Below the pieces are notes generated by a model, which was given only the letters and a program-made list of their open reading frames with translations, was not told where the DNA came from and made no database searches. From contig NZ_BMJQ01000020.1 in the NCBI RefSeq assembly GCF_014643535.1, forward strand, positions 62,001 to 126,000: a stretch of DNA of 64,000 nt. The letters run 5' to 3'. The DNA is from Aliidongia dinghuensis. GTDB taxonomy: Bacteria > Pseudomonadota > Alphaproteobacteria > ATCC43930 > CGMCC-115725. The translations under genes were made by a program, and so were the position numbers. Positions 74 through 35,653 of this stretch are shown piece by piece (positions within the stretch are counted from its first letter, which is position 1; every line of letters begins with the position of its first letter).

Positions 74-1183
74 TCAGGCCACCGGCGATCCGTGTCGAAC
101 GATCGGCTTGATCGTGCAGCCGCTTTCCGAATCCACGACTGCCTGGTTGATGTCGTCGAAATCGTAGAAGCGGACGAGGCGGTCGAACGGAAATTCGCCG
201 CGGCGATGGAGCTCGATCAGATAGGGAATAAACAGGTCCGGCCGGCTGTCGCCCTCGACGATGCCCCGGATATGGCGGCCGCCACTCAGGAGATGGGTGA
301 GATCGGCACTGAGCCGCGCGCCGGCCGGCGACGCGCCGACGATGCCGCAGGCGCCGCGTGGTGCCAGCACGCTCACCGCCTGCTCGATCACGGCCGGCAC
401 GCCGGTCGCGTCGATCGCGAAATCGACGCCGCAGCCGGTGAGTTCGAGGATCCGGGCGGCCGCATCCGAACCGCCGGCAATCAGGTCCGTCGCCCCCAGT
501 TCCTGGGCGAGATCCAGCCGGCCCGGGTGCAGGTCGATCGCGATGATCCGGGCAGCGCCGACGATGCGCGCCGCCATGACGGCGCTGAGGCCGACCGAGC
601 CCAGGCCGAACACGGCAAGGCTCTGCCCCGCCCCGACCTTGAGCGCGTTCATGACCGCGCCGGCGCCGGTCTGCAGGCCGCAGGCAAGCGGCCCCAGGAG
701 CTCGAGCGGCGCCTCCTTCGGCACCGGCACGACATTGCGCTCGTGGCAGAGCGCATGGCTCGCGAAGGATGACTGGCCGAAGATGTTGCCGTGGATCGTC
801 TCGTCCCGGCGCGACAGGCCGCTGCTGCCGTCGGGCCGAGCGCCCAGGAAGTTCCGGCCGAAGAAATCATGGCAATAGGCCTCGGCTTCCGCCTGGCAGC
901 TCGGGCATTCGCCGCACGAATTGAAGCTCATCACGACCGGGTCGCCCGGCGCGACCTTGGTGACGCCGGCACCGACGCGCTCGACGATGCCGGCACCCTC
1001 GTGGCCCAGCACGACCGGCTGCGGCACCGGCAGATGCTGGTCGCGCATCACCATGTCCGTGTGACACACGCCCGTCGCCACCACGCGGACCAGCACCTCG
1101 CCTGGCCGCGGCTCCTCGAGCTCGAGCAGCTCGACCGAAAAGGGAGCACCGGGCTCACGCGCCACCGCTGCCTTGATCCTCAT
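74..1183 (-). CDS. Zinc-dependent aryl-alcohol dehydrogenase (MDR family)
   Basis: This 369-residue protein is a medium-chain zinc alcohol dehydrogenase that interconverts an alcohol and an aldehyde with NAD(P). The catalytic zinc ligands C40, H61-E62 and C168 are visible, as are the four structural-zinc cysteines (C90, C93, C96, C104) and a Rossmann glycine motif GLGSVG at 193-198. Overall it resembles the benzyl/aryl-alcohol dehydrogenase branch. The ATG is preceded by a strong GGGGAGG ribosome site. It is the last gene of the operon ech-ligase-adh, 52 bp after the ligase. I infer that it oxidises coniferyl, vanillyl or similar alcohols, or reduces toxic aromatic aldehydes, alongside the hydroxycinnamate pathway. 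The family call is firm; the substrate is inferred from neighbours only. Confidence 0.85.
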
Positions 1184-1235: not shown

Positions 1236-3368
1236 TTATTCGACGGAGATCAGCGCATCGAGCGCCAGCGCGCCCTCTCCGGCCGGAAGCAGCACCACCG
1301 GATTGATGTCGACTTCGGCAACGGCCGGATTGGCCAGCATGAAGGCGCCGAGCCGGGCCGCGATCCGGGCGGCGGCGTCGACGTCGAGCGGCGGGCTGCC
1401 GCGGAAGCCGCGCAGCAGCGCCCCCGCCTTCAGCCGATGGAGCTCTTGGACGATGGCCTCGTGGCTGAGGTCGGGCGGCAGCAGGCGGACGTCGCCCAGC
1501 GCTTCGGCCAGCACGCCACCCAGGCCCACCAGCAGCACCGGCCCCCAATCAGGATCGTTGCGGGCGCCGACGATCAGTTCCGTGCCCTTGCGTCCCATTG
1601 CTTCGACCAGTACGCCGTCGAGCGCCAGTCCGGGCCGCGCGGCGCCGATTGCCCGATGCAGCCGATCCCAGCCCTCGGCGAGCGCCACCGCCGTGGCGAG
1701 GCCCAGCACGACGCCGCCGACGTCGCTCTTGTGCGAGAGGGCCTGCGACTGCGCCTTCAGCGCCACCGGATATCCCACGCGCTCCGCGATCGCCTGCGCC
1801 TCGGCGAGCGTGCCGGCGAGAGCGCCCTCCGGGACGGGAATCCCGAGCGTCTGCAGGATCGCCTTCGCGCGATATTCCGGAATGACGCCGGGCGAGAGCA
1901 CGAGCGGCACCACGGGTTCGACCGGCACCGCCCGCTCCGCCTGCCCGGCGCGAGCAAGGCAGGCGCGGGCCAGGCAGGCGATCGCGGCGAGCGCCCGTTC
2001 CGCGGTCGGGAAGAATGGCACACCGAGCGCACGCAGTTCGTCGACATAGGCGGACGGCACCTCGGCACCCTCGTCCAGGCCCGCGAAGATCAGCGGTTTC
2101 TCCGGCCGGAGCCGCTGGATCGCCGAGAGGATGGCCGGGAATTTGAGCGCGCAGGTTTCCGGATCGGACAGGATGATGCCCATCAGCACGGCGCCGTAGG
2201 CAGCGTCACCCAGCAGCGCCGGCAGCGTGCGGTTATAGAGATCGGGGTCGACCAGCGCCTGTGCCGTCAGGTCGAGCGGGTTGGTCGGCGGGATGAAATC
2301 GGGCAGCGCCGCGCGGAGCAGGGCGGCGGTCTCGGCACCGATCGGCGGCAGGTCGAGCCCGACCTCCTCTGAGAGATCAAGCGTCACGGCCTTGAAGGCA
2401 CCGGACTCCGTCATCACCGCAGCACCACCCTGCGGCAGGGTCGGGCAGCGCGCCATGATCTCCGCGACGTCGAGCAGCATTTCCAGCCGATCGACGACGA
2501 CGACGCCGGCATGGCCGACCTTGGTGCGCATGACCTGATAGTCGCCGACCATGGCACCGGTGTGGGTCGCGGCCGAGGCGCGGGCGGCACTGCTGCGCCC
2601 CGGATGCAGCAGGACGAGACGCTTGCCTCGGCGCCGCGCCTCCCCCGCAAGATCGAGAAAGCGGCCCGGCTCGCGGAACTGCTCGACGATCATGGCGATG
2701 ACCGGCACCTGCGGATCGTCGAGCAGCTCTTCGAGATAGTCCTCGATGCCGCTCGCCGCCTCGTTGCCGGTCGAGACCGAATAGGCGAGGTTGAGGCCGC
2801 GGTGCCGCAGCCCGACGGTCAGCACCGCCGCCATGGCGCCGCTCTGCGACAGGATCGCGATGCCAGCGCCGTCGGAGGGCCGGTGCTGGGGAATATCGAC
2901 GAAGGTCAGCGGCGCGCCGTCGACGTAATTCACCATGCCGAGGCAGTTCGGCCCTTCGACGGCCATGCCGTGGGTCCGCGCGATCTCGGCGATCCTGGCC
3001 TGATCGGCGCGCCCGCTCTCGCCGGCCTCGGCAAAGCCGGCAGAGAACACGATGGCACCGCCGATGCCCTTGCGGCCGCACGCCGCGAGCACTTCCAGGA
3101 CCGCCGCGCGCGGAATGGCGAGCACGACGCAGTCGACGCCGTCGGGCAGATCGTCGACCGACCTGAGGCAGGGTCGGCCGTACAGCTCGGTATATTTCGG
3201 GTTGATGAGATGGATCTCGCCGGCATAGCCCGCCCGGTCGAGATTGCGCAGCACCGCCGAGCCGAGCGCGGTCGGCGTCGCCGAGACACCCAGGATCGCG
3301 ACGGAGCGCGGCCGCAACAGGCGTCGGATGGCCGTGGGATCGGCCCTCCGCGGATGAACGCGCGTCAT
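1236..3368 (-). CDS. ADP-forming acyl-CoA ligase, probable feruloyl/p-coumaroyl-CoA synthetase (FerA-like)
   Basis: This 710-residue protein is a fused alpha-beta NDP-forming acyl-CoA synthetase. The N-terminal CoA-binding Rossmann domain covers roughly residues 15-140. A succinyl-CoA-ligase-like domain follows (about 165-460), with the expected phospho-histidine motif THTGAMVGD (H269). The C-terminal ATP-grasp domain (about 485-705) contains SHKSDVGGV. It starts 10 bp after the hydratase/lyase gene ech, so the two are almost certainly co-transcribed. In Sphingobium SYK-6 feruloyl-CoA synthetase (FerA) belongs to this superfamily, unlike the AMP-forming Fcs of pseudomonads. I therefore infer activation of ferulate, p-coumarate or caffeate to CoA thioesters. 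The fold is certain; the substrate rests on linkage to ech. Confidence 0.82.
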   Translation of the reverse strand: MTRVHPRRADPTAIRRLLRPRSVAILGVSATPTALGSAVLRNLDRAGYAGEIHLINPKYTELYGRPCLRSVDDLPDGVDCVVLAIPRAAVLEVLAACGRKGIGGAIVFSAGFAEAGESGRADQARIAEIARTHGMAVEGPNCLGMVNYVDGAPLTFVDIPQHRPSDGAGIAILSQSGAMAAVLTVGLRHRGLNLAYSVSTGNEAASGIEDYLEELLDDPQVPVIAMIVEQFREPGRFLDLAGEARRRGKRLVLLHPGRSSAARASAATHTGAMVGDYQVMRTKVGHAGVVVVDRLEMLLDVAEIMARCPTLPQGGAAVMTESGAFKAVTLDLSEEVGLDLPPIGAETAALLRAALPDFIPPTNPLDLTAQALVDPDLYNRTLPALLGDAAYGAVLMGIILSDPETCALKFPAILSAIQRLRPEKPLIFAGLDEGAEVPSAYVDELRALGVPFFPTAERALAAIACLARACLARAGQAERAVPVEPVVPLVLSPGVIPEYRAKAILQTLGIPVPEGALAGTLAEAQAIAERVGYPVALKAQSQALSHKSDVGGVVLGLATAVALAEGWDRLHRAIGAARPGLALDGVLVEAMGRKGTELIVGARNDPDWGPVLLVGLGGVLAEALGDVRLLPPDLSHEAIVQELHRLKAGALLRGFRGSPPLDVDAAARIAARLGAFMLANPAVAEVDINPVVLLPAGEGALALDALISVE

Positions 3369-3378: not shown

Positions 3379-4209
3379 TCACTTCTTGTAGCTGGCGAGG
3401 CCGGGCTTGAAACTCTTGTCGTCCAGGAACTGCTTCATGCCCTTCTCCCGGCCCCCGTCCGGATCGCGATGGAGCGCCTGGTCGAGCTTGGCATAGAGAT
3501 AATCCTCGTTCTGCTCCCACGTGAGCTCGCGGCAGCGCTTGAAGCCGTTCTTGGCCGCGCGCAGCACGACCGGGTTCTTGTCGAGCAGCTTCAGCGCGAG
3601 CTCGATCGTCTCCTCGCGGAGCGACGCGAGCGGCACGGCCTTGTTGACCAGGCCCATCGCCGCCGCCTCGGCCCCGCTGAACGTGTCGCCGGTCATGATG
3701 TAGTGCAGTGCCGCGCGGTGCCCGATCGTGTCGGCGAGCGCCTTGCTCACCAGATTGCCGGGCGGGATGCCCCAGTTGATCTCGGACAGGCCGAAGACCG
3801 CCTCATCGGCCGCGATCGCGAGGTCGCAGGCGACGAGCGGCGAGAAGGCGCCGCCGAAGCACCAGCCGTTGACCATGGCGATGGTCGGCTTGCTGTAGGT
3901 CCTGAGCACGCGCCATTGCCAGGTCGAAGCGTCGCGTCGCACGCGCTCCTGCATGATTTCCGGCTGCCCGTCAGTCTCGCGGAAATATTCCTTGAGATCC
4001 ATGCCGGCCGACCAGGCAGCCCCCTCGCCGGTCAGCACGACCACGCCGGCGTCACCGTCGAGCTCCAGGTCCTCGAGCGCCTCGAGCATCTCCTTGTTGA
4101 GCGTCGGGCTCATGCAGTTCCGCTTGTCCGGCCGGTTGAAATACAGCCAGGCGATGCCGTCCGCGATTTCGACTTTGACGGTTTTCCATCGGCCTTCGTA
4201 GGACGCCAT
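3379..4209 (-). CDS. ech: Hydroxycinnamoyl-CoA hydratase/lyase (feruloyl-CoA to vanillin plus acetyl-CoA)
   Basis: This 276-residue crotonase-fold enzyme hydrates feruloyl-, p-coumaroyl- or caffeoyl-CoA and cleaves the product to an aromatic aldehyde plus acetyl-CoA. It opens with the family signature ASYEGRWKTVKVEI. It keeps every residue I recall as important in Pseudomonas HCHL: M70 and G120 (oxyanion hole), Y75, S123, E143, W146 and Y239. The ATG at 4209 is chosen over longer starts because CCAAGGAGC lies just upstream and the protein then begins exactly like known HCHLs. It is the first gene of the ech-ligase-adh operon, with a palindromic operator 62 bp before the start. This is one of the most secure functional calls in the window. 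Confidence 0.95.
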   Translation of the reverse strand: MASYEGRWKTVKVEIADGIAWLYFNRPDKRNCMSPTLNKEMLEALEDLELDGDAGVVVLTGEGAAWSAGMDLKEYFRETDGQPEIMQERVRRDASTWQWRVLRTYSKPTIAMVNGWCFGGAFSPLVACDLAIAADEAVFGLSEINWGIPPGNLVSKALADTIGHRAALHYIMTGDTFSGAEAAAMGLVNKAVPLASLREETIELALKLLDKNPVVLRAAKNGFKRCRELTWEQNEDYLYAKLDQALHRDPDGGREKGMKQFLDDKSFKPGLASYKK

Positions 4210-4270: not shown

Positions 4271-4289
4271 TTGTTATGATAGATAACAA
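4271..4289. promoter_or_regulatory. Palindromic operator, ech/marR divergent promoter
   Basis: TTGTTAT, five bases (GATAG), then ATAACAA form a perfect 7-bp inverted repeat. It sits in the 225-bp divergent region between ech (minus) and the MarR gene (plus). The same core occurs upstream of the DUF1302 gene (11883-11901), and one half-site recurs upstream of vdh. The length and symmetry suit a MarR dimer. I infer that the adjacent MarR protein binds here and represses both directions until a hydroxycinnamoyl-CoA ligand releases it. Binding itself is not shown. Confidence 0.75.
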
Positions 4290-4434
4290 TTATGCACGAT
4301 GTCAATTGACGCCGCAGGCTGAACAGCGGCAAATCGCGCGAATGGGATGAACCGAACGCAGTGGCGGAGGGCCGGCAAACTGCGGAAGATGAGGGTGGAA
4401 TTCATTGCCGAACAAACGACTAGAGGAGACGCGC

Positions 4435-4974
4435 GTGCGTCGTGCTGCCGGTGGCCGCAAGTCGGCCGAGACGGCGCCGTCCGTCGAGAACGGCAACCTG
4501 AACACGATCGAAACGGTCGATGTCGGTCCGCTCCCCACGATCCTGGGCTATGCGCTCCGGCGCGCGCAGCTCGCCGTATTCAAGGAGTTCCAGGCGCGGT
4601 TCGAAGCGATCAACATCCGGCCGTCGCAGTTCGGCATCCTGACGGTCATCGCGCGCAATCCGGGCATCAAGCAGACCCAGGTGAGCGAGGCGCTCTACAT
4701 CAAGCGCGCCAATCTCGTCCGGCTGCTCGACGAGCTCGAGGCGCGCGACCTCATCCGCCGCGACGCCTCCGTGCACGACCGGCGCTCCCACTCGCTCAAC
4801 CTGACCGCCTACGGCACGCTCTTCGTCGCCCAGATGGAGGAGATCCATCGTCAGCTCGAAGACCATCTGGCCGACCTGCTGGGCAAGGAGGCGAAGGCCT
4901 CGCTCCTGAAGATGCTGCATCTGCTGATCGCCAGCGCGCCGGGTGCCGACGATCTCGCGGCCGACTACGACTGA
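4435..4974 (+). CDS. MarR-family transcriptional regulator, probable hydroxycinnamate repressor
   Basis: A winged-helix MarR regulator of 179 residues. The central region carries the family wHTH (PSQFGILTVIARNPGIKQTQ, then a recognition helix around RANLVRLLDELEARDLIRR and a wing DASVHDRRSHSLNLT), flanked by dimerisation helices. The GTG start at 4435 is chosen because AGAGGAG (4422-4428) lies six bases upstream. A TTG at 4405 would add ten residues but has no ribosome site. The gene diverges from ech and converges on the RND gene with only four bases between stop codons. By analogy with FerC and CouR, which control hydroxycinnamate genes and respond to the CoA thioesters, it is the likely reader of the palindromes at 4271, 11875 and 14227. 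Assignment of target sites is inference. Confidence 0.88.
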   Translation: MRRAAGGRKSAETAPSVENGNLNTIETVDVGPLPTILGYALRRAQLAVFKEFQARFEAINIRPSQFGILTVIARNPGIKQTQVSEALYIKRANLVRLLDELEARDLIRRDASVHDRRSHSLNLTAYGTLFVAQMEEIHRQLEDHLADLLGKEAKASLLKMLHLLIASAPGADDLAADYD

Positions 4975-4978
4975 CAGC

Positions 4979-7411
4979 TCAGCCATCGATCTCGGCCTGG
5001 CAGACGCCCAGCGGCACGGCGCGGCTGCGCCGGCCGCCGTTCAGGAGGAAGCAGGCGAGCGCTGGCAGCAGGACAAGCGCGCCCAGCATGTTCCAGATGA
5101 ACATGAAGGCGAGCAGGATGCCCATGTCGGCCTGGAACTTGATCGGCGAGAACGCCCAGGTCGCAACCGCGAGGCCGAGCGTGCAGCCGGTCAGCACCAC
5201 GACCCGCCCGGTGAACAGCAGCGCCCGGTAATAGGCTTGGGACAGGGACATGCCCTGGCGCAGATGGGCCTGGGTCACGGTCAGCACATAGAGCGCGTAA
5301 TCGACGCCGATGCCGACGCCGAGGGCGATCACCGGCAGGGTCGCGACCTTGACGCCGATGCCGAGCGAGACCATCAGCGCCTCGCACAGCGTCGAGGTGA
5401 GGATGAGCGGCAGCACCGCGCAGACGACGGCGCGCCAGGAGCGAAACGCGATGAAGGACAGCACGACGACTGCGCCGTAGACCAGCACCAGCATCTCGGA
5501 ATTGGCCTGCTTCACGACGATGTTCGTCGCGGCGTCGATGCCGGCATTACCGGCCGCGCGCAGGAAATGCGCGTCGGCTCTGTCGTTCTTCTGGGCGAAC
5601 TGGCCGACCGCGTCACTGACCGCGGTCAGCGTGTCGGCCTTGTGGTCCTTGAGATAGGCGTAGACCGCAAGGAAGTCGCAATTGACGTTGAACACGTCGC
5701 GCGGCGCCCGGTTGACGACGAAATTGAGCGTGTCCTGGTTGCGCGGCACGTCGTACCAGCGGGCGTTGCCCTCGTTCATGCCCATGCCCATGCGCTTCGC
5801 GACGGTGGCGAGCGATAGGGTGCCCTCGACACCCGGCAGCTGGGCCAGGTCCCATTCGAGCGCATCCACCCGCATGAGCGTGTCGTAGCGCGCGCATTGC
5901 CCGGGCGGCGTCGTGACCATGGTCACGAAGATGTCGCTGCTCGCGGCGTAGTTGGCCGTGATGTAGGCGTCGTCGCGGTTATAGACCGAGTCCTGGCGCA
6001 GCTCCGGGGCACCCTGCTCGAGATCGCCGATCTTCAAGTGATGGCCGACGGCAGCCGCGCCGAGGCCAAGCAGCACGGCGCCCGCGACCGCCGCACCGGC
6101 GACGCGCGGCTCGGTAAAGCGGTCGAGGAAGTGCCAGAACGGGTGCCGCGCCTCATCCGCCGCGAGCGCGCGCTCGGCCGCGGCCAAGCTGCGCCGGGCA
6201 GCCATGGCGCTGACGCCCAGATATGACAGGAGGATCGGCAGCAGCACGAGGTTGGTGAAGATCAGCACGGCAACGCCGATGCTGGCGGCGATCGCCAACT
6301 CCTGGATCACCCGGATCTGGATCAGCATCAGCACGGCGAAGCCCACGGCATCGGCCAGCAGCGCGGTCAGGCCCGCGACGAACAGGCGGCGGAACGTATA
6401 GCGGGCGGCGATAAGCCGGTGCGTGCCGCGGCCGATGTCCTGGGTGATGCCGTTCATCTTCTGCGCGCCATGGCTCATGCCGATGGCGAACACCAGGAAC
6501 GGCACCAGGATCGAATAGGGATCGAGCTCGTAGCCAAGGCTCGGCAGCAGCCCCAGAAGCCACACGACCGCGATTGAGGAGCAGGCCATCACCACGATCG
6601 TGCTGCGCAGGCAGCGCGTATACCAGAACAAGAGGCCCGAGCAGATCAGGATCGCGATCAGGAAGAACGCCAGCACCTCGTGCATGCCGATGATGAGGTC
6701 GCCGACCATCTTGGCGAAGCCATTGATGTGGATGGCGATCTTGTCCGACTGATGGGCCTGCCGCAGCGCCTCCAGGCGCTGGCTGAACGCGCGGTAGTCG
6801 AGCCGCTGGCCGGTCTCGGCATTGCGCTCCATGAGCGGCACCAGCACGATGCTCGACTTGAAGTCGGATGCCACGATCTGGCCGATCTCGCCGGAGCGCT
6901 CGACGTTGCGCCGCACCGCGTCCAAGGCCGCCGGCGAGCCGTCGTAGGTGTCGTCGATGACCGGCCCGCCGTCGAGCCCGTCCTCGGTGACACCGGTCCA
7001 GCGCGTCGCCGGCGTCCAGAGCGACTTCATATACGGCCGCTCGACGCCGGGGATCAGGAACACCTCGTCGTTGATCTGGCGCAGCGTCTCCAGGTAGTCC
7101 TTGTCGAAGATCGTGCCGCTCCGGTTCTCGACCGCGATGCGCACGACGTTGCCGAGCGCCGCCAGATCGTTCTTGTGCTCGAAGTAATTGACGATGAACG
7201 GCTGCTTCGTCGGGATCATCTTCTCGAAGCTGGCCGCGAGCTCGAGCTTCGTCGCCTGGTAGCCGAGGACGAGCGTCGCCAGCACGCAGACAAGAACGAT
7301 CGCCAGGCGATTGTTGAACAGGATGCGTTCGAGCAGGCTGCCGGACGACCGGTCGAAATCCTTGAGATCCCGGATGGCGGGCGGCTCGATCGGCGAGATG
7401 TCTCTATTCAC
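4979..7411 (-). CDS. RND-superfamily (MMPL/HAE3-type) exporter
   Basis: An 810-residue inner-membrane transporter with the RND layout. TM1 is near residues 35-52, followed by a large extracytoplasmic loop (about 55-240), TM2-6 (about 245-400), TM7 (about 437-455), a second large loop, and TM8-12 to the C terminus. GVGIGVDYALYV in the second half is typical of MMPL-type proteins. It starts at GTG (7411), and GTGA overlaps the stop of the YCF48-like gene, so translation is probably coupled. There is no membrane-fusion or TolC gene nearby. Instead it is joined to YCF48-like, DUF1329 and DUF1302 proteins, an association seen with hydrophobic-substrate catabolism in other proteobacteria. Direction and cargo are unknown; a hydroxycinnamate-derived or lipid-like molecule is my inference. 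Confidence 0.85.
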   Translation of the reverse strand: MNRDISPIEPPAIRDLKDFDRSSGSLLERILFNNRLAIVLVCVLATLVLGYQATKLELAASFEKMIPTKQPFIVNYFEHKNDLAALGNVVRIAVENRSGTIFDKDYLETLRQINDEVFLIPGVERPYMKSLWTPATRWTGVTEDGLDGGPVIDDTYDGSPAALDAVRRNVERSGEIGQIVASDFKSSIVLVPLMERNAETGQRLDYRAFSQRLEALRQAHQSDKIAIHINGFAKMVGDLIIGMHEVLAFFLIAILICSGLLFWYTRCLRSTIVVMACSSIAVVWLLGLLPSLGYELDPYSILVPFLVFAIGMSHGAQKMNGITQDIGRGTHRLIAARYTFRRLFVAGLTALLADAVGFAVLMLIQIRVIQELAIAASIGVAVLIFTNLVLLPILLSYLGVSAMAARRSLAAAERALAADEARHPFWHFLDRFTEPRVAGAAVAGAVLLGLGAAAVGHHLKIGDLEQGAPELRQDSVYNRDDAYITANYAASSDIFVTMVTTPPGQCARYDTLMRVDALEWDLAQLPGVEGTLSLATVAKRMGMGMNEGNARWYDVPRNQDTLNFVVNRAPRDVFNVNCDFLAVYAYLKDHKADTLTAVSDAVGQFAQKNDRADAHFLRAAGNAGIDAATNIVVKQANSEMLVLVYGAVVVLSFIAFRSWRAVVCAVLPLILTSTLCEALMVSLGIGVKVATLPVIALGVGIGVDYALYVLTVTQAHLRQGMSLSQAYYRALLFTGRVVVLTGCTLGLAVATWAFSPIKFQADMGILLAFMFIWNMLGALVLLPALACFLLNGGRRSRAVPLGVCQAEIDG

Positions 7412-8520
7412 TGTGCGATTCCCTGTGCGTTAGCCCCGCGGACGAGCGCCGCCGGGACGCGGACATTGCCGCCGGGCCCCGCGACGACGAGCGCGTCGCT
7501 GCCGGCCGCGGCAAGGCCGAAGCAGGGGGTGGGGTCGGGCAGCCGCATATCCTCGAAGCTGCGGCCGTCGTCCCGGCTGCGCGCGAGCGTGCCGGTCTCG
7601 TCTGCCAGCAGGACCGTGCCGTCCGCGAGCACGGCGCCGGCATTGATGCTGGCCGACCGGCTGCCGATGCGTGCCCAGTTCACCCCATCCTCGCTGCGGA
7701 ACAGCGCCCCGCGCAGGCCGAAGGCGACGAGCGCGCCCGATCGGGTGGTCACCGCGCCGAACAGGCTGCCTCGGCCGACCGGCTTTTCGGCCTGGAAGCT
7801 CTGGCCGCCGTCGGTCGAGCGGAACACGGCGCCCTGCTCGCCGACCAGCACGAGAGCATCGGGCGTCGCGGCGATGCCGTAGAGGTGATGGCCCGCCGGA
7901 TTGTCGATCTCGCCCATGATCGAGCGCCAATGCCGGCCGCCGTCGTCGGTCCGGAACGCAAGCCCGTAGGCGCCGACGACCAGCCCCCGGGTCTCGTCGA
8001 GGAAGCGGACGTCGAGCAGCGGCTTGTCCGGGCCGTCGGCGACCAGGCCTTCCGCCTCACGCATCCGACGCTGGACTGCGGCGTCGCCTGGCGCCCGCTC
8101 GAGCGCCGCCTTGGCCGCCGCAAGCTCGATCGCCGCGGCCTCGACGCCGTCGAACGCCTTCGCCCAGGTCTCGCCGCCGTCGCGGGTCTGGAGCAGCACG
8201 CCGCCATTGCCGACGACCCAACCGGTTTGGGGCGCCGGGAACGTCGCCGCCGTCAAGGTCGCGCGGACCGGCGAGCGCACCTGGCGCCAGGATGCCCCCT
8301 GATCGTCCGACAGCAGGATCGTGCCGCGTTCGCCGACGGAGACCAGCCGCTCGCCGGTCCAGGCGACCGCGGTCATCAGCAGGTGGAGGCTGTGCGGCGA
8401 CAGGGCCGACGGGTTCTTCAGCGGATCGGCCGTGCCGCCGGAGAGGTCGGCGAGCGACGCGGCCGAGGCCGTCGCCGCCAGCAGCAGCATGGATGCGCCG
8501 AGGAAGGTTGCTCGCAGCAT
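7408..8520 (-). CDS. Secreted YCF48/BNR-type beta-propeller protein
   Basis: A 370-residue exported protein. The start at 8520 gives a clean signal peptide (MLRATFLGASMLLLAATASA). At least six Asp-box/YCF48 repeats follow, e.g. GTILLSDDQGASW, GVLLQTRDGGETW, GLAFRTDDGGRHW, GAVFRSTDGGQSF, GALFRSEDGVNWA and GTLARSRDDGRSF, so the mature protein should be a six- or seven-bladed periplasmic propeller. YCF48 itself assembles photosystem II, but no photosynthetic genes are present, so that label reflects fold only. It overlaps the RND gene by four bases, and I infer it is a periplasmic partner or assembly factor of the exporter. Upstream, a hairpin with a T-run separates it from the DUF1329 gene. Confidence 0.8.
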   Translation of the reverse strand: MLRATFLGASMLLLAATASAASLADLSGGTADPLKNPSALSPHSLHLLMTAVAWTGERLVSVGERGTILLSDDQGASWRQVRSPVRATLTAATFPAPQTGWVVGNGGVLLQTRDGGETWAKAFDGVEAAAIELAAAKAALERAPGDAAVQRRMREAEGLVADGPDKPLLDVRFLDETRGLVVGAYGLAFRTDDGGRHWRSIMGEIDNPAGHHLYGIAATPDALVLVGEQGAVFRSTDGGQSFQAEKPVGRGSLFGAVTTRSGALVAFGLRGALFRSEDGVNWARIGSRSASINAGAVLADGTVLLADETGTLARSRDDGRSFEDMRLPDPTPCFGLAAAGSDALVVAGPGGNVRVPAALVRGANAQGIAQ

Positions 8521-8564
8521 GGCGACGCCCTGGAAATTGAAAATCTGAAGAAGCCCGAAAAATT

Positions 8565-8592
8565 GGGAGCGGCCTTTCCCCCCGCCGCTCCC
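8565..8592 (-). terminator. Intra-operon hairpin with T-run (attenuator or partial terminator)
   Basis: GGGAGCGGC (8565-8573) and GCCGCTCCC (8584-8592) form a perfect 9-bp GC-rich stem with a 10-base loop. Read on the minus strand, the stem is followed directly by AATTTTTC. It lies in the 87-bp gap between the DUF1329 stop and the YCF48-like start. This is the structure of an intrinsic terminator placed inside an operon. I infer that it makes the two outer-membrane/periplasmic genes more abundant than the propeller and RND genes. Confidence 0.65.
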
Positions 8593-8607
8593 CAAGGCTC
8601 AGGGGAA

Positions 8608-9960
8608 CTAGCGGACGCCTTCCGAGGCGAGCGAGTCGCCGGTGAAGAAGCTGTCGGGACGCGGCGCCACGTTCTTGTAGTAGCCGTCGTTGAAGACCTC
8701 GATCGCGCTGTAGGTGCCGGCCTGCAGGTTGTGGACGATCGTGGTGTCGATGAAATCGTAGCCACCGTCGGCGACGTTGAGCGGCAGCATGTAGGCCGTG
8801 CGCCACAGCTTGCCGTCGGCGTCATAGCCGTCGGTCATGAGCGCCGCATAGCTGTCCTCGTCGAAATAGACCCGCTTCTTCGGCACGACATGGCGCTTGC
8901 CGGACGCGAGCGAGAGCTCGACGACCCAGACCCGGTGCAACTCCCAGCGCAGCTTGTCCGCGTTCGGGAAGTGGGCCGTGAGCGCCTGCGCCGACGGCAG
9001 CTGGAAGAATGCGTTGTCGTTGTAGGGGACGTAGATTTCCTGCTTGCCGATCAGCTTCCAGTCATAGCGGTCGGGCGCACCCCAGAAGCCGAACACTTCG
9101 TCGAAATAATTGGCGCCGGAAGCCACGAAGTCGGGCGTGTCGTACCCCACGGTCGGCGCCCGGCGCACCCGGCGCTGGCCGACCAGGTACTGCCAGGCCT
9201 GGCGCGGCGTCGAAGGATCGACGCTGTCGCGGATCACCAGCATCTCGCCCGCCTTGAACGCCGGCCCCACGTTCTGCAGCCGGCCGAAGGCATATTCGCC
9301 GTCCCATTTGTCGGCCGAGCCGTCCTGCTCGTAATAAGGCGACTGATGATTGTCGATGGCGCTCACCGTCATGGTGACCGAGCCGTCGGAATTGCCGGTG
9401 AAATTCTGGATCCGGTAGCTGTTCGACGGCGACACGTAGCGCAGCGTGTGGTTCCAATAGAGTTCGATGCCGGATTTCGGCATCGGGAACGGCGTACCGC
9501 CGTAGACGCCCTTGACCGACTGGCCGTTGTCGCCAAGCTGGCCGTTCACCGCGTTCTTCAGGTCATTGTCATAGACCCATTGCGGGGCCGCGAACGTCCG
9601 GTGCGACGGATAGACCGTCAGGTGATAGTCCGGATACTTGGCAATCAGCGCCTTCTGGCCTTCGCTGAGCTTGCCGGCATATTGCGCCACGTTCTTCTGA
9701 TCGATGACAAAGAGCGGCTTCTCGTTCGGGTATTGATCGGCCGGCAGCGGGCCCGTGCTGGGGACCAGCGCCTTGGTGAGGCCGCCGTCCCAGGCCGGGA
9801 TGGAGCCGTCCTTGTTGCCGGCCTTCTCGGCGCCGAACGGCGTCAGCTCGTGCCCGAGCTTCGCCGCCTCCTGCGGCGAGATGCCGGCCTCGGCGGCACC
9901 TGCGAGCAGGAGCGTCGCCGTGAGCGCCGCGCCGAGCGCGGCCGTGCTGTTCTTCCTCAT
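8608..9960 (-). CDS. DUF1329 periplasmic (LolA/LolB-like) protein
   Basis: A 450-residue exported protein recognised as the DUF1329 family, whose fold is related to lipoprotein-carrier LolA/LolB. It has a signal peptide ending AGAAEA, with no lipobox cysteine, then the family start GISPQEAAKLGHELTPFGAE and the middle region NHTLRYVSPSNSYRIQNFTG. The ATG at 9960 follows GGGGAGGAAAC. It is 14 bp downstream of the DUF1302 barrel, the usual order for this pair, and presumably moves hydrophobic material between inner and outer membranes together with the barrel and the RND protein. The family call is secure. No member that I can name has an established biochemical role. Confidence 0.85.
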   Translation of the reverse strand: MRKNSTAALGAALTATLLLAGAAEAGISPQEAAKLGHELTPFGAEKAGNKDGSIPAWDGGLTKALVPSTGPLPADQYPNEKPLFVIDQKNVAQYAGKLSEGQKALIAKYPDYHLTVYPSHRTFAAPQWVYDNDLKNAVNGQLGDNGQSVKGVYGGTPFPMPKSGIELYWNHTLRYVSPSNSYRIQNFTGNSDGSVTMTVSAIDNHQSPYYEQDGSADKWDGEYAFGRLQNVGPAFKAGEMLVIRDSVDPSTPRQAWQYLVGQRRVRRAPTVGYDTPDFVASGANYFDEVFGFWGAPDRYDWKLIGKQEIYVPYNDNAFFQLPSAQALTAHFPNADKLRWELHRVWVVELSLASGKRHVVPKKRVYFDEDSYAALMTDGYDADGKLWRTAYMLPLNVADGGYDFIDTTIVHNLQAGTYSAIEVFNDGYYKNVAPRPDSFFTGDSLASEGVR

Positions 9961-9974
9961 GTTTCCTCCCCGGC

Positions 9975-11771
9975 TCAGAACGTGCGCGACAGCGAGAACG
10001 CGATGAAATCGCGGTCATGCAGATCCTGCGCATAGGACAGGTAGCGCGCCGCACCGCCTGCCGTTGGTTGCCCCTTCGGGCCGAAGTAGCTCGTGTAGGT
10101 GAGCGAGACGTTCCAGACGTTGTCGTACTTGCCCTTCACGCCGAGGCTGAGGTCGCCGACGTTCTGGGCGTTGAAGTTGCCGATGTGCGAGCCCAGTGCG
10201 GAACGGCCGTAGAGGCCGTAGCCGAGGCCGATCGGCGTCGTGACGTCGAGGTTCGGCATCACCTGGAAGAACGACGGTTCGAACACCGCCCGAGCTGCCA
10301 ACGCGCTACGGGTGCTGGTCGGGTTCAGCGACATGGTGCTGTCGGCGAAGAGCACGCCGCCTGGCCCCAGCACCGTCGCCTTGTCGCCCTTGTTCAGGAT
10401 GTCGAGCAGATGGTTGAAACCCAGCTCGCCGACGATCGAGGCGCCGTCCCAGATGCCGTTTTCGGTCAGGAGCGAGATGGCCGAGATGTTGGCGTGCAGC
10501 GTGTCGCCGCGCAGGTAGCGGGTGCTCGAGAGATTGTCGCTCGAGCCATTGGCGAAGATGATGCCGCCGTTGCCGCCGGCGCTGTCGGCAGTCGCGAGCG
10601 ACTGGTTGTGGCGGAACGAGATCTCGCCCGAGACATTCGTGTCGCCGACCGCGGTCGCGAAGCTGGCGCCGTAGGTCTGGACGTTCTGGTTATAGGCGGT
10701 GCGGAAATTGCCGATGCGCAGCGCGCTTACGCCGTCGCCGAAGGTGACGGGCGCGACGCCGGTCTCGATCAGATAGTCGGCCGCCGGATCCTTTTCGTGA
10801 TAGTTCGCGAAATAGAGGCCGAACTCCCAGTTCTTGGTCGCCTTCCAGCGCAGCTCGGCGCCGCCCTGCCCCTGGCTGTCGGGCATCAGGTCCTTGCCGT
10901 GGGCGAAATAGAGGCCCGGCACGGCGCCGGCGAATTGCCCGGGCGGCCACAACGTCTCGGCGCCGGCGCCGAACACGTCGGCATCGCTGAAATAGCTGCC
11001 GACGCCCGGCAAGCGGTCCGGCCGATATTCGAACTGGTAATACCCGCCGAGCAGCAGGCCGTGGCCGAGCTCCCAATTGAACGACGCCTGGCCGACCGGC
11101 AGCATGATCTCCTTGAACTGCGAGTTCGGCACGGAGAGTGCCTTGACGACGTCGATCGGCGCCTGGGCGGCGGCGATGCCGTTGGCGCCCATGAACAGCG
11201 TCTCGCCATAGAGCTGGGAGAAGCGCCCGACACGGACGGTGAGCGCCTGCTCGCTCGGCAGCTCGAACGTGTGGAACACCAGCGCGTCGAGCACCTCGAC
11301 GTCCTTGCCGTGCAGCACGCGCGTCCCTTGCGGGAACTGGTTGACACCCTCGAACGCGTTGTTGGTGCTCGTCGGGTCGTGGTTGGTCGTCGACTGGTTG
11401 TAGACCGTGTCGTACCAGGCGGCGGCCGACAGGCGGAAGCCGGTGTGCTCCTGATAGACGGCGTCGAACTCGGACAGGATGTCGACGCGGTTCGAGATCA
11501 GGCCCTTGCGGAAGTTCCGGTCGCCGTCGTTGACGTTGCTGTTGAGCGGCTGGAAATTGCCACCCACGGCCGGATCGAAACTGCCGACGCGGAAGGCGTT
11601 CGAATATTTGAGCGTATTGTCCCAGCGCAGCGACCAGTCGGGATCGCCGGCGTCGATCTGGTCGGCCCATGCCGTGCCCGTGCCCGCCGTGCCCGCCACC
11701 GCCAGTACGCCGAGGGCGATGCCCGACAACAAACGGGCCCTGGATATGCTGCGCCCCGTAAGCGGAACCAT
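9975..11771 (-). CDS. DUF1302 outer-membrane beta-barrel protein
   Basis: A 598-residue protein of the DUF1302 family. The start at 11771 follows TTCGGGAGG and yields a signal peptide ending near GTAWA. The mature part alternates short amphipathic strands rich in Y, W, F and N, and ends in SLSRTF; a terminal phenylalanine is the outer-membrane-protein insertion signal. WSLRWDNTLKYSNAFRVG near the mature N terminus is typical of the family. It heads the operon DUF1302-DUF1329-YCF48-RND, with the strongest palindromic operator in the window 104-138 bp upstream of the start. I infer a porin-like channel or docking barrel for aromatic or hydrophobic substrate, induced with the hydroxycinnamate genes. 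Confidence 0.85.
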   Translation of the reverse strand: MVPLTGRSISRARLLSGIALGVLAVAGTAGTGTAWADQIDAGDPDWSLRWDNTLKYSNAFRVGSFDPAVGGNFQPLNSNVNDGDRNFRKGLISNRVDILSEFDAVYQEHTGFRLSAAAWYDTVYNQSTTNHDPTSTNNAFEGVNQFPQGTRVLHGKDVEVLDALVFHTFELPSEQALTVRVGRFSQLYGETLFMGANGIAAAQAPIDVVKALSVPNSQFKEIMLPVGQASFNWELGHGLLLGGYYQFEYRPDRLPGVGSYFSDADVFGAGAETLWPPGQFAGAVPGLYFAHGKDLMPDSQGQGGAELRWKATKNWEFGLYFANYHEKDPAADYLIETGVAPVTFGDGVSALRIGNFRTAYNQNVQTYGASFATAVGDTNVSGEISFRHNQSLATADSAGGNGGIIFANGSSDNLSSTRYLRGDTLHANISAISLLTENGIWDGASIVGELGFNHLLDILNKGDKATVLGPGGVLFADSTMSLNPTSTRSALAARAVFEPSFFQVMPNLDVTTPIGLGYGLYGRSALGSHIGNFNAQNVGDLSLGVKGKYDNVWNVSLTYTSYFGPKGQPTAGGAARYLSYAQDLHDRDFIAFSLSRTF

Positions 11772-11874: not shown

Positions 11875-11909
11875 ACACATAATTGTTATATTCAATAACA
11901 ATTATGTGT
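11875..11909. promoter_or_regulatory. Extended palindromic operator of the envelope operon
   Basis: ACACATAATTGTTAT, five bases (ATTCA), then ATAACAATTATGTGT form a perfect 15-bp inverted repeat. The inner core TTGTTAT-N5-ATAACAA is identical in arms and spacing to the site before ech. It lies in the gap between the DUF1302 start and the esterase stop, so it most likely controls the envelope operon. This is the clearest sequence evidence that these genes belong to the hydroxycinnamate regulon. Confidence 0.8.
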
Positions 11910-11933: not shown

Positions 11934-12662
11934 TCAGGGAGCGGCGCTTTCGCCGGCGATCAGGTGGTCGACCAGCCGCTCGGGTGCGGAGAAGAACGGC
12001 GAATGCGATGTCGGCAGCTGGAACACCCGCGCGCAGGGCCAGGCCGCTTGCATGCGGCGCTGGGACGAGAGCGTGATGGCGCGGTCGTCCAGGCATTCGA
12101 TGAAATGCCTCGGTACCTGCCCGAAGCGCTCCGCCGTGACGCGGACCGGCGTGTGGATCGAGAACAGCGGCTCAGGCCTGAGGCGCTGAAAGGTGAAATC
12201 GAGATCCTCGGGCGAGCAATCGCCATAGAAGCCGCCGACCACGACTTCCTTGCGCACGGTCCAGGTGCCGGCGCGCTCGTCCGGCACGAGGTTGGTCGGG
12301 ATCACCGAGGCCGTGTCGGCGACCGCCTCCTGCCACAGGGTCTGGCCGTCCTTGAGCAGGAAGGCGGTGAGATAAACGGCGCGCTTGACCAGTTCCGGCG
12401 CCCGTTCGGCGACAGCGCTCACCAGAATGCCGCCGCGGCTGTGGCCGACGAGGACGACCGGCTCGGGCTGGGCGCGGGCGAGATCGACCAGATGGTCGAC
12501 CCAGAGATCGAGGCTGAGTGCCGCGATCGGCGTCGGGTCGGCGCCCAGGCCCGGCAGGTCGGGCGCCAGCACATGATGGCCGGCGGCCTCCAGCAGCGGC
12601 ACGACCTTGTGCCAGCACCAGCCGCCGTGGGCAGCACCATGGATCAGCATGAAATGCGCCAT
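11934..12662 (-). CDS. Alpha/beta hydrolase, possible hydroxycinnamate ester esterase
   Basis: A 242-residue alpha/beta hydrolase with no signal peptide, so probably cytoplasmic. It opens with the oxyanion motif MAHFMLIHGAAHGGWCW. The nucleophile elbow is GHSRGG (S75), and the triad is completed by an aspartate in ECLDD (192-193) and H220 in LPTSHSPFF. The layout matches the small methylesterase/hydroxynitrile-lyase-like group. The start at 12662 is fixed by GAGGGAGG upstream. The gene lies 11 bp after the vdh-like gene in the same operon. I infer hydrolysis of hydroxycinnamate esters (methyl ferulate, chlorogenate-type) to feed the CoA ligase. The fold is certain; the substrate is a guess from context. 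Confidence 0.8.
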   Translation of the reverse strand: MAHFMLIHGAAHGGWCWHKVVPLLEAAGHHVLAPDLPGLGADPTPIAALSLDLWVDHLVDLARAQPEPVVLVGHSRGGILVSAVAERAPELVKRAVYLTAFLLKDGQTLWQEAVADTASVIPTNLVPDERAGTWTVRKEVVVGGFYGDCSPEDLDFTFQRLRPEPLFSIHTPVRVTAERFGQVPRHFIECLDDRAITLSSQRRMQAAWPCARVFQLPTSHSPFFSAPERLVDHLIAGESAAP

Positions 12663-12673
12663 CGCGGCCTCCC

Positions 12674-14146
12674 TCAGTACGGCTTCCGGGTCGGCCGGCT
12701 CTCGATGGTGATCCAGCGCCATTGGGTGAACAGGTCCCAGTTCGCCGGGCCGCCGATATTGCCGCCGTTGCCGGAGGCACCCCGGCCGCCGAACGGGTTG
12801 GCGACCTCGTCGGCAATCGTCTGGTCGTTGATGTGCAGGAGGCCCGAATTGATCCGCTCGCCCAGTGCCAGCGCACGGCCGATGTCGGGCGAGATAACGG
12901 CGCCCGACAGGCCGTAGTCCGTGTCGTTGGCGATCGCGATCGCCTCGTCGTCCGACCCGAACGGGATGATGCTGGCGACCGGGCCGAACACCTCGTCGCG
13001 ATAGGCGCGCATGCCGCGCTTGACGCCGCTCAGCACGGTCGGGCGGTAGAACAGCCCCTCGTAGGTGCCGCCGGCCGCGAGCACGGCGCCCTCCGCCACC
13101 GTGTCCTGGACGATCTCGTGGATCCGGTTGCGCTGCGCCTCGCTGATGATCGGGCCCAGCGCCACGTTCTCGGTCGCCGGATTGCCGACGGGCAGGTGCC
13201 GGGCCCGTTCGGCCAGCAGCTTCGCGAAGGGCTGTGCGACCTGTTCCTGTACCAGGATGCGGCCCGACGCCATGCAGACCTGGCCCTGGTGGAAATAGGC
13301 GCCGAACGCCGCGTTCGACGCCGCCAGCTCCAGATCGGCATCCTCGAGCACGATCAGCGGGCTCTTGCCGCCCAGTTCGAGCGACATGCGCTTCAAGAGC
13401 CGCCCGCAGGTCTCGCCGATCGCCCGGCCCGCAGCGGTCGAGCCGGTGAAGGCGATGAGCCGTGTGTCGGGATGCTCGACCAGCGCCTGGCCGACCTCGG
13501 CACCGCCCGGCAGCATGTGGAAGACGTCGGTCGGAAAACCGGCCTCATCGAGCGCCCGCGCCATGAGCACGCCGCCGGTGACCGGCGTGCGCGGATCGGG
13601 CTTGAGCACGACCGTGTTGCCGGTGGCGAGCGCCGGCGCCACGGCGCGGGCACCCAGGATCATCGGGAAATTGAACGGCGAGATGACGCCGACGACGCCA
13701 TGCGGCACGCGCTGGCCGTAACTCAGGCGCCCCGCCCGGGACGGCAGCACCGCCCCATGCGCCTCGGTCAGCATGCCGGCCGCCTGGCGGAACAGCGCCA
13801 CCGTCTCCGCGACCTCGACCTGCGCCTTCGGCCGGATGGCGCCGTTCTCGCGCACGATCCACTCGACGAGCTCGTCGCCATGGCTCTCGAGAACGGCGGC
13901 GGCCTTCAGCAGCAGCTTCATGCGCGTCCGGTGGTCGAGCCCGGCCCAGGCCGGCTGCGCCGCCTTGGCGCGCGCAACCGCGACCGCCACGTCGGCCGGC
14001 GTGGCAACGCCGATGAGCGCCAGCTCGGCGCCCGTCGCCGGCTCCCGGACCGCAGCGGTCCCCGCGGTCGGCGACTGCCATCCGCCAAGCCAGAGCCTGC
14101 CGCTCCAGCGCTTCGCATCGAGAAAATGGTAGCTGGACAGATCCAT
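12674..14146 (-). CDS. vdh: Aromatic aldehyde dehydrogenase, probable vanillin dehydrogenase
   Basis: A 490-residue NAD(P)-dependent aldehyde dehydrogenase. It has the catalytic C291 in GQVCMASGR, the general base E257 in LELGGKSP, and N159 in SPFNFP. The sequence style (SYGQRVPHGVVGVISPFNFP, NDQTIADE near the end) matches the benzaldehyde/vanillin dehydrogenase branch. It would convert vanillin or 4-hydroxybenzaldehyde, released by the hydratase/lyase, to the aromatic acid. A ribosome site AAGGGGAGGG precedes the ATG. It is the first gene of a two-gene operon with the esterase, and a TTGTTAT half-site repeat lies about 80-107 bp upstream. The vdh symbol rests on family plus regulon context. 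Confidence 0.85.
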   Translation of the reverse strand: MDLSSYHFLDAKRWSGRLWLGGWQSPTAGTAAVREPATGAELALIGVATPADVAVAVARAKAAQPAWAGLDHRTRMKLLLKAAAVLESHGDELVEWIVRENGAIRPKAQVEVAETVALFRQAAGMLTEAHGAVLPSRAGRLSYGQRVPHGVVGVISPFNFPMILGARAVAPALATGNTVVLKPDPRTPVTGGVLMARALDEAGFPTDVFHMLPGGAEVGQALVEHPDTRLIAFTGSTAAGRAIGETCGRLLKRMSLELGGKSPLIVLEDADLELAASNAAFGAYFHQGQVCMASGRILVQEQVAQPFAKLLAERARHLPVGNPATENVALGPIISEAQRNRIHEIVQDTVAEGAVLAAGGTYEGLFYRPTVLSGVKRGMRAYRDEVFGPVASIIPFGSDDEAIAIANDTDYGLSGAVISPDIGRALALGERINSGLLHINDQTIADEVANPFGGRGASGNGGNIGGPANWDLFTQWRWITIESRPTRKPY

Positions 14147-14226: not shown

Positions 14227-14254
14227 ATAATTGTTATTATATATAATTGTTATT
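14227..14254. promoter_or_regulatory. Diverged operator upstream of vdh
   Basis: The 12-mer ATAATTGTTATT occurs twice as a direct repeat (14227-14238 and 14243-14254, 16-bp period). Each copy contains the TTGTTAT half-site of the palindromes at 4271 and 11883. Read as a palindrome, the right arm is only partly conserved (ATAATTG instead of ATAACAA). It sits about 80-107 bp before the vdh start, in a strikingly AT-rich patch. I infer a weaker or differently arranged site for the same regulator. Confidence 0.6.
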
Positions 14255-20695: not shown

Positions 20696-21409
20696 GTGAC
20701 AACAGCCTTCATCACAGGTGCGACGAGCGGCATTGGGCGCGCCATGGCGGTGGAGCTCAGCGCGGCCGGCTATGAGGTCTACGCCGTCGGGCGCAGCAAA
20801 ACGGCGCTCGAGGAATTGCGGGCGCTACGGGCCGAGATCACGCCGATCGCCGTCGATATTACCGACCGCGATGCTCTCGAGGCGATCGTGAGCGATCTGC
20901 AGATCGACGTGCTGATCAACAACGCCGGCATGATGCCGCCGCTCGGCAATTTTGCCGACATGAGAGTGTCGGACATCGACGCCACGCTCGAGGTCAACCT
21001 CAGTGCGGCCATCCTGCTCACCCGGCTGGTCGTGCCCCAGATGCGCGAGCGAGGAGCCGGGCACATCATCTTCACCGGTTCTGCCGCAGCTCATACGGCA
21101 TTTCCGAATATCGCCGTCTATTCCGCGGCCAAGGCAGGCATCGCCGGGTTCGCGGCAGCTCTGCGGGCGGATCTCTCACAGCACGGCATCCGCGTCACGG
21201 AGATCGTGCCCGGTCGCGTCGAGACGCAACTCTACAAGGACATCCTCGACGCCGAGGCGCGCGCCGCCATGTACGCCGGGAACGTCGCGGTGCAGCCGAT
21301 CGACGTGGCCAGGATGGTGGTGGCCGTCCTTGGCTTGCCGGCTTCAGCGGACGTTACCCGCTTCGACATCATGCCAACCCGCCCGACCAGCCCCAGCGGC
21401 ACCAAATGA
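20696..21409 (+). CDS. Short-chain dehydrogenase/reductase
   Basis: A 237-residue classical SDR of the YdfG/short 3-hydroxyacid dehydrogenase type. The NADP motif is TGATSGIGRA, followed by NNAG; the catalytic serine is in FTGSAA and YSAAK is intact. GTG start 20696 is supported by GAGG five bases upstream. It is the first gene of a new transcription unit and is followed after 10 bp by a second SDR. The sequence ends in an unusual proline/threonine-rich tail (MPTRPTSPSGTK). Members oxidise small hydroxyacids, which fits the neighbours, but the substrate is not known. Confidence 0.82.
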   Translation: MTTAFITGATSGIGRAMAVELSAAGYEVYAVGRSKTALEELRALRAEITPIAVDITDRDALEAIVSDLQIDVLINNAGMMPPLGNFADMRVSDIDATLEVNLSAAILLTRLVVPQMRERGAGHIIFTGSAAAHTAFPNIAVYSAAKAGIAGFAAALRADLSQHGIRVTEIVPGRVETQLYKDILDAEARAAMYAGNVAVQPIDVARMVVAVLGLPASADVTRFDIMPTRPTSPSGTK

Positions 21410-21419
21410 GGAGTGAGCC

Positions 21420-22169: not shown

Positions 22170-22249
22170 GGTCTGAGGAGCGGTCGTCCGGCGGCCGGGA
22201 AGGCGATGTGCGGGTCAGTCCATGAGGGCCAATTTTCGAGGGAGCGGCA

Positions 22250-23200: not shown

Positions 23201-23273
23201 AGGCTGCTTTGCAAGGAGGGCATCAATAGCCCCCAAGAACAAAACCAAACAACTTCAACAGTGGAGAAAGAAC

Positions 23274-24308: not shown

Positions 24309-24314
24309 GGCGTA

Positions 24315-24348
24315 GGGGCTCCACCAGGCGCCTACCCGGCGGAGCCCC
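24315..24348 (+). other. Stem-loop between binding protein and permease genes
   Basis: GGGGCTCC (24315-24322) pairs with GGAGCCCC (24341-24348), a perfect 8-bp stem with an 18-base loop and no T-run after it. Such structures downstream of binding-protein genes often stabilise the upstream mRNA. Confidence 0.5.
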
Positions 24349-24374
24349 ACCTCGCTCTCGCGAAAGGCCGGACG

Positions 24375-25538: not shown

Positions 25539-25541
25539 GTC

Positions 25542-26615: not shown

Positions 26616-26625
26616 GGAGCCGCCT

Positions 26626-28854: not shown

Positions 28855-28863
28855 CAAAGAAGA

Positions 28864-35650: not shown

Positions 35651-35653
35651 ATC

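Follow-up and report, generated by a model that had tools for sequence, protein, structure and literature searches.

An AmeABCD-like envelope cassette, a candidate exporter of hydrophobic phenolics, in a hydroxycinnamate locus of Aliidongia dinghuensis

Introduction

What role do four envelope proteins play when their genes are embedded in a locus for the degradation of hydroxycinnamates, and in which direction would they move their cargo? The question is raised by a stretch of 64,000 bp from the alphaproteobacterium Aliidongia dinghuensis (RefSeq assembly GCF_014643535.1, contig NZ_BMJQ01000020.1, positions 62,001 to 126,000; hereafter the window), which carries adjacent genes for a DUF1302 outer-membrane barrel, a DUF1329 periplasmic protein, a YCF48 propeller and an RND transporter. 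Little is known of the way in which Gram-negative degraders transport oily aromatics across the envelope, and the cassette is widespread. We are confident that the set is an AmeABCD-like cassette, and consider it the best reading on balance that it functions as an AmeABCD-type, proton-driven envelope exporter that clears hydrophobic phenolics, was recruited into a ferulate/p-coumarate regulon and is induced together with the pathway; its identity is much surer than its transport direction. This type of cassette has already been described in other bacteria. What is new here is its placement inside a hydroxycinnamate locus, encoding a p-hydroxycinnamoyl-CoA hydratase/lyase (HCHL), an ADP-forming CoA ligase, an aldehyde dehydrogenase and a CouR-like MarR regulator, and its regulatory link to that pathway, in which a control word, ATAACAATTAT, appears to connect the cassette to genes degrading lignin-type acids.

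Results and Discussion

Composition of the cassette

The four genes are adjacent on the minus strand in the order DUF1302-DUF1329-YCF48-RND, the AmeABCD-type arrangement. The DUF1302 outer-membrane beta-barrel (AmeA-like; 9975..11771; PF06980, 401 bits) comprises 598 aa from the ATG at 11771. It is followed after 14 bp by the DUF1329 periplasmic LolA/LolB-like protein (AmeB-like; 8608..9960, 450 aa; PF07044, 401 bits), whose LolA_like match of 29.9 bits falls just below the Pfam cut-off of 30, after a further 87 bp by the secreted YCF48/BNR propeller (AmeC-like; 7408..8520, likely start ATG at 8520; PF14870, 69 bits), and, with a 4-bp overlap, by the RND/MMPL pump (AmeD-like; 4979..7411, 810 aa; PF03176, 66.2 bits). 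Open reading frame coordinates and Pfam matches thus agree with the original prediction, made from the DNA alone, in the frames, families, positions and spacing. The propeller displays six Asp-box-like motifs, of which one lacks a residue, and signal-peptide-like N-termini were recognised by eye on the DUF1302, DUF1329 and YCF48 proteins.

The best NCBIfam match of the RND is HAE3 (TIGR00921) with 125.3 bits, and since this score lies under the curated cut-off of 351.9 the protein is best named MmpL/HAE3-like, not a HAE3 member. No membrane-fusion protein or TolC family was found among the window proteins scanned, a scan that covered part of the window, in line with the earlier suggestion that the set could do without them. 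A tripartite HAE1 efflux system of the AcrAB-TolC kind, or a TolC-like tunnel, is therefore not supported by the proteins scanned, the outer-membrane model being moreover a porin-like barrel.

Conservation and co-occurrence of the four genes

Named genomes were scanned with an RND alignment and the best 80 of 582 relatives by RND similarity were kept (the named set, which is found with RND motifs and biased to close kin). Of these 80 loci, 74 preserve the arrangement DUF1302-DUF1329-YCF48-RND, which rules out a chance neighbourhood. Among the six exceptions, the RND is near a contig end in three (L123, L126, L127), one has 3.7 kb of contig before YCF48 (L139), and two (L109, L122) display YCF48-RND with neither DUF1302 nor DUF1329 in 22 kb.

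The class set comprises 190 genomes, 24 of which hold an RND relative at E <= 1e-20; 40 loci were chosen and fetched, with G027 and G097 left out. Nine loci are canonical, three have the order YCF48-RND-DUF1302-DUF1329, eight are partial, one (L039) displays a gap of ~6 kb between DUF1329 and YCF48 with DUF1302 present, and 19 contain the RND alone in the stretch, including three cut at contig ends (L047, L050, L065). The 19 lone RNDs cluster in the tree with two whose only neighbour from the set is DUF1329 (a group of 21 rows, support 99/100), and the RND rows of canonical order are not a single clade.

At the genome level, a strong DUF1329 match (E < 1e-20) is present in 23 of the 24 RND genomes versus 2 of the 166 others, and DUF1302 (E <= 1e-3) in 22 of 24 versus 4 of 166, with G091 and G130 as weak DUF1302 matches. 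The strict DUF1329 threshold drops 12 genomes with weak matches only from the 37 of 190 that match at E <= 0.001. Co-occurrence of RND and DUF1329 gives a Fisher p of ~3e-26, with genomes treated as independent although related, and a second genome-level p of ~1e-22 is likewise uncorrected for kinship. Gene order and this association together bear out the claim that the four genes go together. Homologous loci with the four genes separate and independent had been named as a refutation of the original prediction. Separate neighbourhoods were found, in 19 of the 40 class loci, but they do not amount to independence: ten of the 12 genomes that hold these 19 lone RNDs carry both DUF1329 and DUF1302 elsewhere, the other two having DUF1329 only (G018) or neither (G052). 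The genes of the cassette can be split within a genome and still go together, as in Pseudomonas putida.

A control word shared with the catabolic genes

The word ATAACAATTAT is an exact 11-mer common to three promoters of the locus. Two copies (11879-11889 and 11895-11905) are contained in an operator-like perfect inverted repeat with 15-bp arms and a 5-bp spacer (11875..11909), ~0.1 kb before the DUF1302 start; two more, in the same direction and with a 16-bp period, precede the aldehyde dehydrogenase gene (14227-14237 and 14243-14253); and one is located on the plus strand between the MarR and HCHL genes (4283..4293), 5 bp from a TTGTTAT half-site. These five are the exact copies in the window, where shuffled sequences gave a mean of 0.06 with one mismatch allowed, and also the only exact copies in the whole 7.37-Mb genome, in which the reversed control gave 0. 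With one mismatch, 6 further genome sites were found versus 7 control matches, which is background. At the sequence level the word speaks for a possible joint control of cassette and catabolic pathway, and backs the earlier placement of the cassette in an aromatic regulon.

The candidate regulator is the MarR protein encoded at 4405..4974 on the plus strand (start uncertain; PF12802, 51.9 bits). Among solved structures its closest match is 6c28, which we take to be CouR of Rhodopseudomonas, with 96.8 bits, the next PDB match reaching 38.3. We infer that this MarR binds the ATAACAATTAT words. CouR of Rhodococcus responds to p-coumaroyl-CoA (PMC4737184; statements on this and the other cited reports refer to the sections consulted). 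The window is a clean test case, as it combines a single CouR-like repressor and a defined pathway with one cassette and with operator-like sites confined to three promoters.

The surrounding hydroxycinnamate locus

Upstream of the cassette and on the same minus strand are two genes. An alpha/beta hydrolase of the methylesterase/hydroxynitrile-lyase/pyrethroid-hydrolase family (11934..12722; start uncertain, at 12722, 12662 or 12650), in which no signal peptide was seen, is separated from DUF1302 by 162 bp, and is preceded by an aldehyde dehydrogenase (12674..14146; PF00171, 522 bits), which is of the vanillin or coniferyl-aldehyde type by context only and passed no NCBIfam equivalog cut-off among the matches listed. 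On the other flank, beyond the MarR gene, the minus strand encodes HCHL (3379..4209), an ADP-forming acyl-CoA synthetase (1236..3368; ATP-grasp_5, Succ_CoA_lig and CoA_binding_2), presumed to be the hydroxycinnamoyl-CoA ligase, and a zinc alcohol dehydrogenase (74..1183; PF08240 and PF00107). Since HCHL exceeds the equivalog cut-off of NF006588 (481.8 versus 276 bits) and matches a solved p-hydroxycinnamoyl-CoA hydratase/lyase (PDB 2j5i, 490 bits), the locus very likely degrades hydroxycinnamates via the HCHL route.

Predicted structures and membrane residues of the RND

The AlphaFold (AF2) model of the DUF1302 protein is a large beta-barrel with a predicted local distance difference test score (pLDDT) of 85.3. 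Its closest solved folds are OprD/Occ porins, namely OccK3 (Z 18.4, root-mean-square deviation (rmsd) 3.8, 304 aligned residues), followed by OpdK and a BenF-like porin (Z ~17.6), with maltoporin and AlgE (Z 16.6 for AlgE) lower. No match to PF03573 (OprD/Occ) was obtained, Pfam yielding DUF1302 alone at E <= 0.001, and FadL is not among the fold matches listed, which excludes nothing.

The AF2 model of the RND (pLDDT 88.8) displays 12 long membrane-type helices and two periplasmic domains. Foldseek ranks MmpL5, MmpL4 and MmpL3 first, then HpnN and NPC1-type proteins (NPC1, NPC1L1, NCR1). By a second aligner MmpL5 ties with AcrB, AdeB and SecDF at Z ~40, with 686 residues at rmsd 3.8 for MmpL5 versus 625 at 6.4 for AcrB. 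The protein carries Ser313-His314 in transmembrane helix 4 (TM4) and Asp704-Tyr705 in TM10. The Ser-His pair is conserved in 42 of 44 class-set rows and 79 of 80 named rows, the Asp-Tyr pair in 42 of 44 and 80 of 80; the class set is the fairer measure, as the named rows were found with patterns holding the TM10 Asp-Tyr or the residues just before the TM4 Ser-His. Exceptions are the second RNDs of L058 and L059, which are distant proteins, and L126, which is masked at the TM4 Ser-His. The window RND shares with the MmpL/HpnN branch the 12 helices, the two periplasmic domains and the MmpL Asp-Tyr of TM10; in TM4, however, Ser-His replaces the second Asp-Tyr of MmpL proteins, and HpnN displays in the alignment the opposite asymmetry (its first half has Asp, its second Ala). 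The TM4 His may belong to the proton path, and the Ser-His/Asp-Tyr pair offers a concrete handle for mutational study of coupling in this RND branch.

Relation to described systems

The original prediction regarded the set as its best candidate for an undescribed system and knew of no demonstrated mechanism; neither view stands against the literature. AmeABCD of Castellaniella defragrans 65Phen consists of the same families in the same order (DUF1302, DUF1329, COG4447/YCF48, COG1033 RND) within a catabolic island, with proteins of 605, 451, 316 and 787 aa, compared with 598, 450, 370 and 810 aa in the window. Mutants lacking it grow less well on apolar monoterpenes and tolerate them less, and the system is substrate-inducible (PMC6394551). 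It differs in being part of a monoterpene island, whereas the window cassette belongs to a hydroxycinnamate locus, and in that the consulted sections of that report mention no MarR operators, of which the window locus has operator-like words. The set COG4447-COG1033-PF07044-DUF1302 was described in 2019 in AphR/AphS/AphT phenol regulons of Betaproteobacteria, with a proposed role in aromatic and solvent stress (PMC6449761); these operons thus combine the same four families with aromatic regulons, under phenol-type regulators instead of a CouR-like MarR and hydroxycinnamates.

In P. putida, a DUF1302 protein, a DUF1329 protein, a periplasmic protein and an efflux transporter (PP_0765/PP_0766 and PP_2018/PP_2019) with linked phenotypes were proposed in 2024 to form a novel transport system. 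Modelling yielded a strong contact between the transporter PP_2019 and periplasmic PP_2018, and weak ones linking DUF1329 to both PP_2019 and DUF1302 (PMC10866462). We assume that PP_2018 is the YCF48 propeller and PP_2019 the RND. By their locus tags these genes occupy two separate loci, unlike the operon-like set of the window, and the phenotype was observed on Tween 20. A further relative is the 'nanopod' cluster of the benzene-degrading ORM2a, a single highly expressed cluster encoding a porin-like protein, DUF1329, a YCF48-related protein and an MMPL transporter; it differs by its anaerobic setting and by a universal stress protein and a hypothetical gene in between. Its DUF1329 is distantly related to that of Delftia (21% identity), and the direction of transport was left open (PMC13101534). 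AupAB is another pair of outer- and inner-membrane proteins, which takes up alkanes and whose AupA is FadL-like; no family link to the cassette was found in the sections of the literature consulted.

Other copies and their contexts

The genome of A. dinghuensis contains three DUF1329 loci: that of the window and one each on contigs C24 and C6. On C24 all four genes are present in the same order next to a TetR regulator, with glycosyltransferase and nucleotide-sugar genes (GDP-mannose-dehydratase-type) adjoining on the other strand. With an RND 90% identical to the one in the same-genus genome G190, this copy is shared within the genus. The C6 copy (L006, 8182-11282) is a divergent DUF1302/DUF1329 pair, with RND and YCF48 absent in 19 kb; the same divergent arrangement occurs in G014 and G147, both without an RND match. 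A sigma-54 activator gene and a gene for a 777-aa alpha/beta hydrolase protein are located near the C6 pair.

In G190, the one same-genus genome searched, no counterpart of the window-type RND was found; the C24-type RND is the only one there. An RND tree of 63 rows (56 of the 80 named loci, after 18 near-copies were dropped by hand and others by a length filter) places the window RND among beta- and gammaproteobacterial rows, joined to L078 at 91% in the Shimodaira-Hasegawa-like approximate likelihood ratio test (SH-aLRT), a node not starred. This grouping and the lack of a same-genus counterpart suggest a later gain of the window cassette; the G+C content at third codon positions is no different from that of neighbouring genes and gives no support for such a gain.

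Eight plasmid loci were scanned with profiles of our own, and the four genes were found in order in seven; the eighth, on Comamonas pBHB (L171), retains the RND and a short remnant of YCF48, located between transposase genes. Plasmid neighbours include fumarylacetoacetate hydrolases, VOC proteins, a 2-hydroxychromene-2-carboxylate isomerase, a benzaldehyde dehydrogenase with an alcohol dehydrogenase and a sigma-54 regulator, and hydroxyquinol dioxygenases with an FAD monooxygenase; rfbC (L169) and a biotin carboxylase set (L170) are non-aromatic neighbours. The flanks of the named loci, of which a selection was scanned, contain MobR-like sigma-54 regulators (below the model cut-off), FAD monooxygenases, acyl-CoA dehydrogenases and a phenol hydroxylase. 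Among the 80 named loci, HCHL occurs close to the cassette in two, from Massilia (L103) and P. frederiksbergensis (L117). The RNDs of these two branch apart from the window RND in the RND tree, so the cassette seems to have been taken into hydroxycinnamate loci on more than one occasion. Shared 10-mers between promoters amounted in L103 and L117 to just one GC-rich word, in L103. A eugenol pathway was considered at L117 and rejected, the gene before HCHL encoding an OprD porin and not a flavin hydroxylase. In Pseudomonas sp. TH41 (L151), a second DUF1329-DUF1302 pair lies ~7 kb after the full cassette.

Proposed mechanism and alternative explanations

We propose that hydroxycinnamoyl-CoA would relieve the CouR-like MarR from the ATAACAATTAT operators before HCHL, aldehyde dehydrogenase and DUF1302, so that pathway and transporter would be induced jointly. 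Powered by the proton gradient, the MmpL-like RND would collect hydrophobic phenolics from the inner membrane or periplasm, the cargo being the pathway substrate, vanillin-type aldehydes or neutral esters. The YCF48 propeller would dock on the RND, DUF1329 would carry the molecule across the periplasm in a lipid-carrier-like cavity, and the porin-like DUF1302 barrel would be the exit. Gene content, order, conservation, operator-like words and predicted folds were observed here; the tolerance phenotype and the modelled contacts are carried over by analogy from other species, and cargo, direction and operator occupancy are inferred. The P. putida contacts, strong between PP_2018 and PP_2019 and weak for DUF1329, fit such a relay. 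Export is favoured on three grounds: the effect of AmeABCD on tolerance, the placement of like operons in stress regulons, and the general tendency of RND proteins to export.

The main rival, which we hold distinctly less likely, is the opposite direction. In an NPC-like import, the DUF1302 barrel would take up hydrophobic neutral phenylpropanoids such as methyl or alkyl ferulates, DUF1329 would act as an NPC2-like carrier, and the RND would pass the molecule to the inner membrane, where a cytosolic esterase would free the acid for HCHL. The hydrolase of the operon, given its family and its lack of a visible signal peptide, is consistent with an ester that may have to enter intact; the DUF1302 model resembles Occ porins for aromatic acid uptake (OpdK, BenF-like), the RND matches NPC1, NPC1L1 and NCR1, and AupAB is a precedent for uptake by an outer/inner membrane pair. 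Fold, however, gives no direction: the barrel matches an exporter as well, AlgE, and in the second alignment MmpL and NCR1 rank level with AcrB and SecDF as matches of the RND. The general habit of RND proteins also speaks against import, as does the AmeABCD mutant, which with acetate supplied grew like the wild type at limonene concentrations of up to 5 mM, a result more in keeping with toxicity than with a loss of uptake (PMC6394551). A more specific form, in which the Ser-His/Asp-Tyr RND would be energised for uptake of neutral hydrophobic phenylpropanoid esters as a counterpart of the NPC2-NPC1 route and controlled by the CoA product derived from its cargo, is decidedly improbable. It is less probable still that the cassette remodels the envelope, transporting a membrane lipid outward, as HpnN does for hopanoids, and thereby hardening the outer membrane against phenolic stress. 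The Foldseek ranking of MmpL4/5/3 and HpnN, the weak LolA-likeness of DUF1329, the sugar genes adjoining the C24 cassette and rfbC in the L169 stretch are in its favour, but other copies belong to catabolic regulons and have mostly catabolic genes as annotated neighbours, and the two cassettes of the genome are beside different regulators, MarR in the window and TetR on C24. That the four proteins have no joint function and merely hitchhike in catabolic islands is scarcely credible: the 19 lone-RND class loci and the C6 pair without RND would fit it, but the single order in 74 of 80 named loci, the co-occurrence values and the mutant phenotypes shared in P. putida (PMC10866462) argue for a common role.

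Several points weigh against export of phenolics itself. Its direction rests on data from other species, and hydroxycinnamate anions are not very hydrophobic. Real-time Nile Red efflux of the AmeABCD mutant was almost identical to that of the wild type, and its Nile Red accumulation was higher, the difference being slight (PMC6394551). Growth of P. putida on Tween 20 requires the homologues, whose mutants share that phenotype (PMC10866462), and deletion of the Delftia DUF1329, as told in PMC13101534, impaired growth on phenanthrene; such losses of growth fit import too. The likeness to AmeABCD is drawn from families, order and similar protein lengths, no Castellaniella locus being among the best 80 of 582 relatives and the RND trees being built from other cassettes, and the RND stays far under the HAE3 cut-off. 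As HCHL is near the cassette in just 2 of the 80 named loci, the cargo assignment rests mainly on the window. Lastly, ATAACAATTAT was not found in the HCHL regions of R. leguminosarum or S. meliloti, in the 80 named loci or in 13 other loci; it thus has no phylogenetic footprint and belongs to this locus, not to the cassette as such. An exporter induced with the pathway would be relevant to lignin-valorising strains, in which tolerance to aldehydes and phenolics limits yield.

Other features of the window

Two further regions of the window were recorded. A second catabolic-looking block on the plus strand (20696-36463) encodes short-chain dehydrogenases/reductases, a LysR regulator, an ABC importer, an FAD oxidase, a thiamine diphosphate (TPP) enzyme, hydantoinases A and B and an aminotransferase. 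On the minus strand, an open frame of 3,904 aa (52088-63802), rich in Gly, Ala and Thr and with almost no Cys, resembles by eye an exoprotein of the filamentous-haemagglutinin type, and its tandem repeats are short only.

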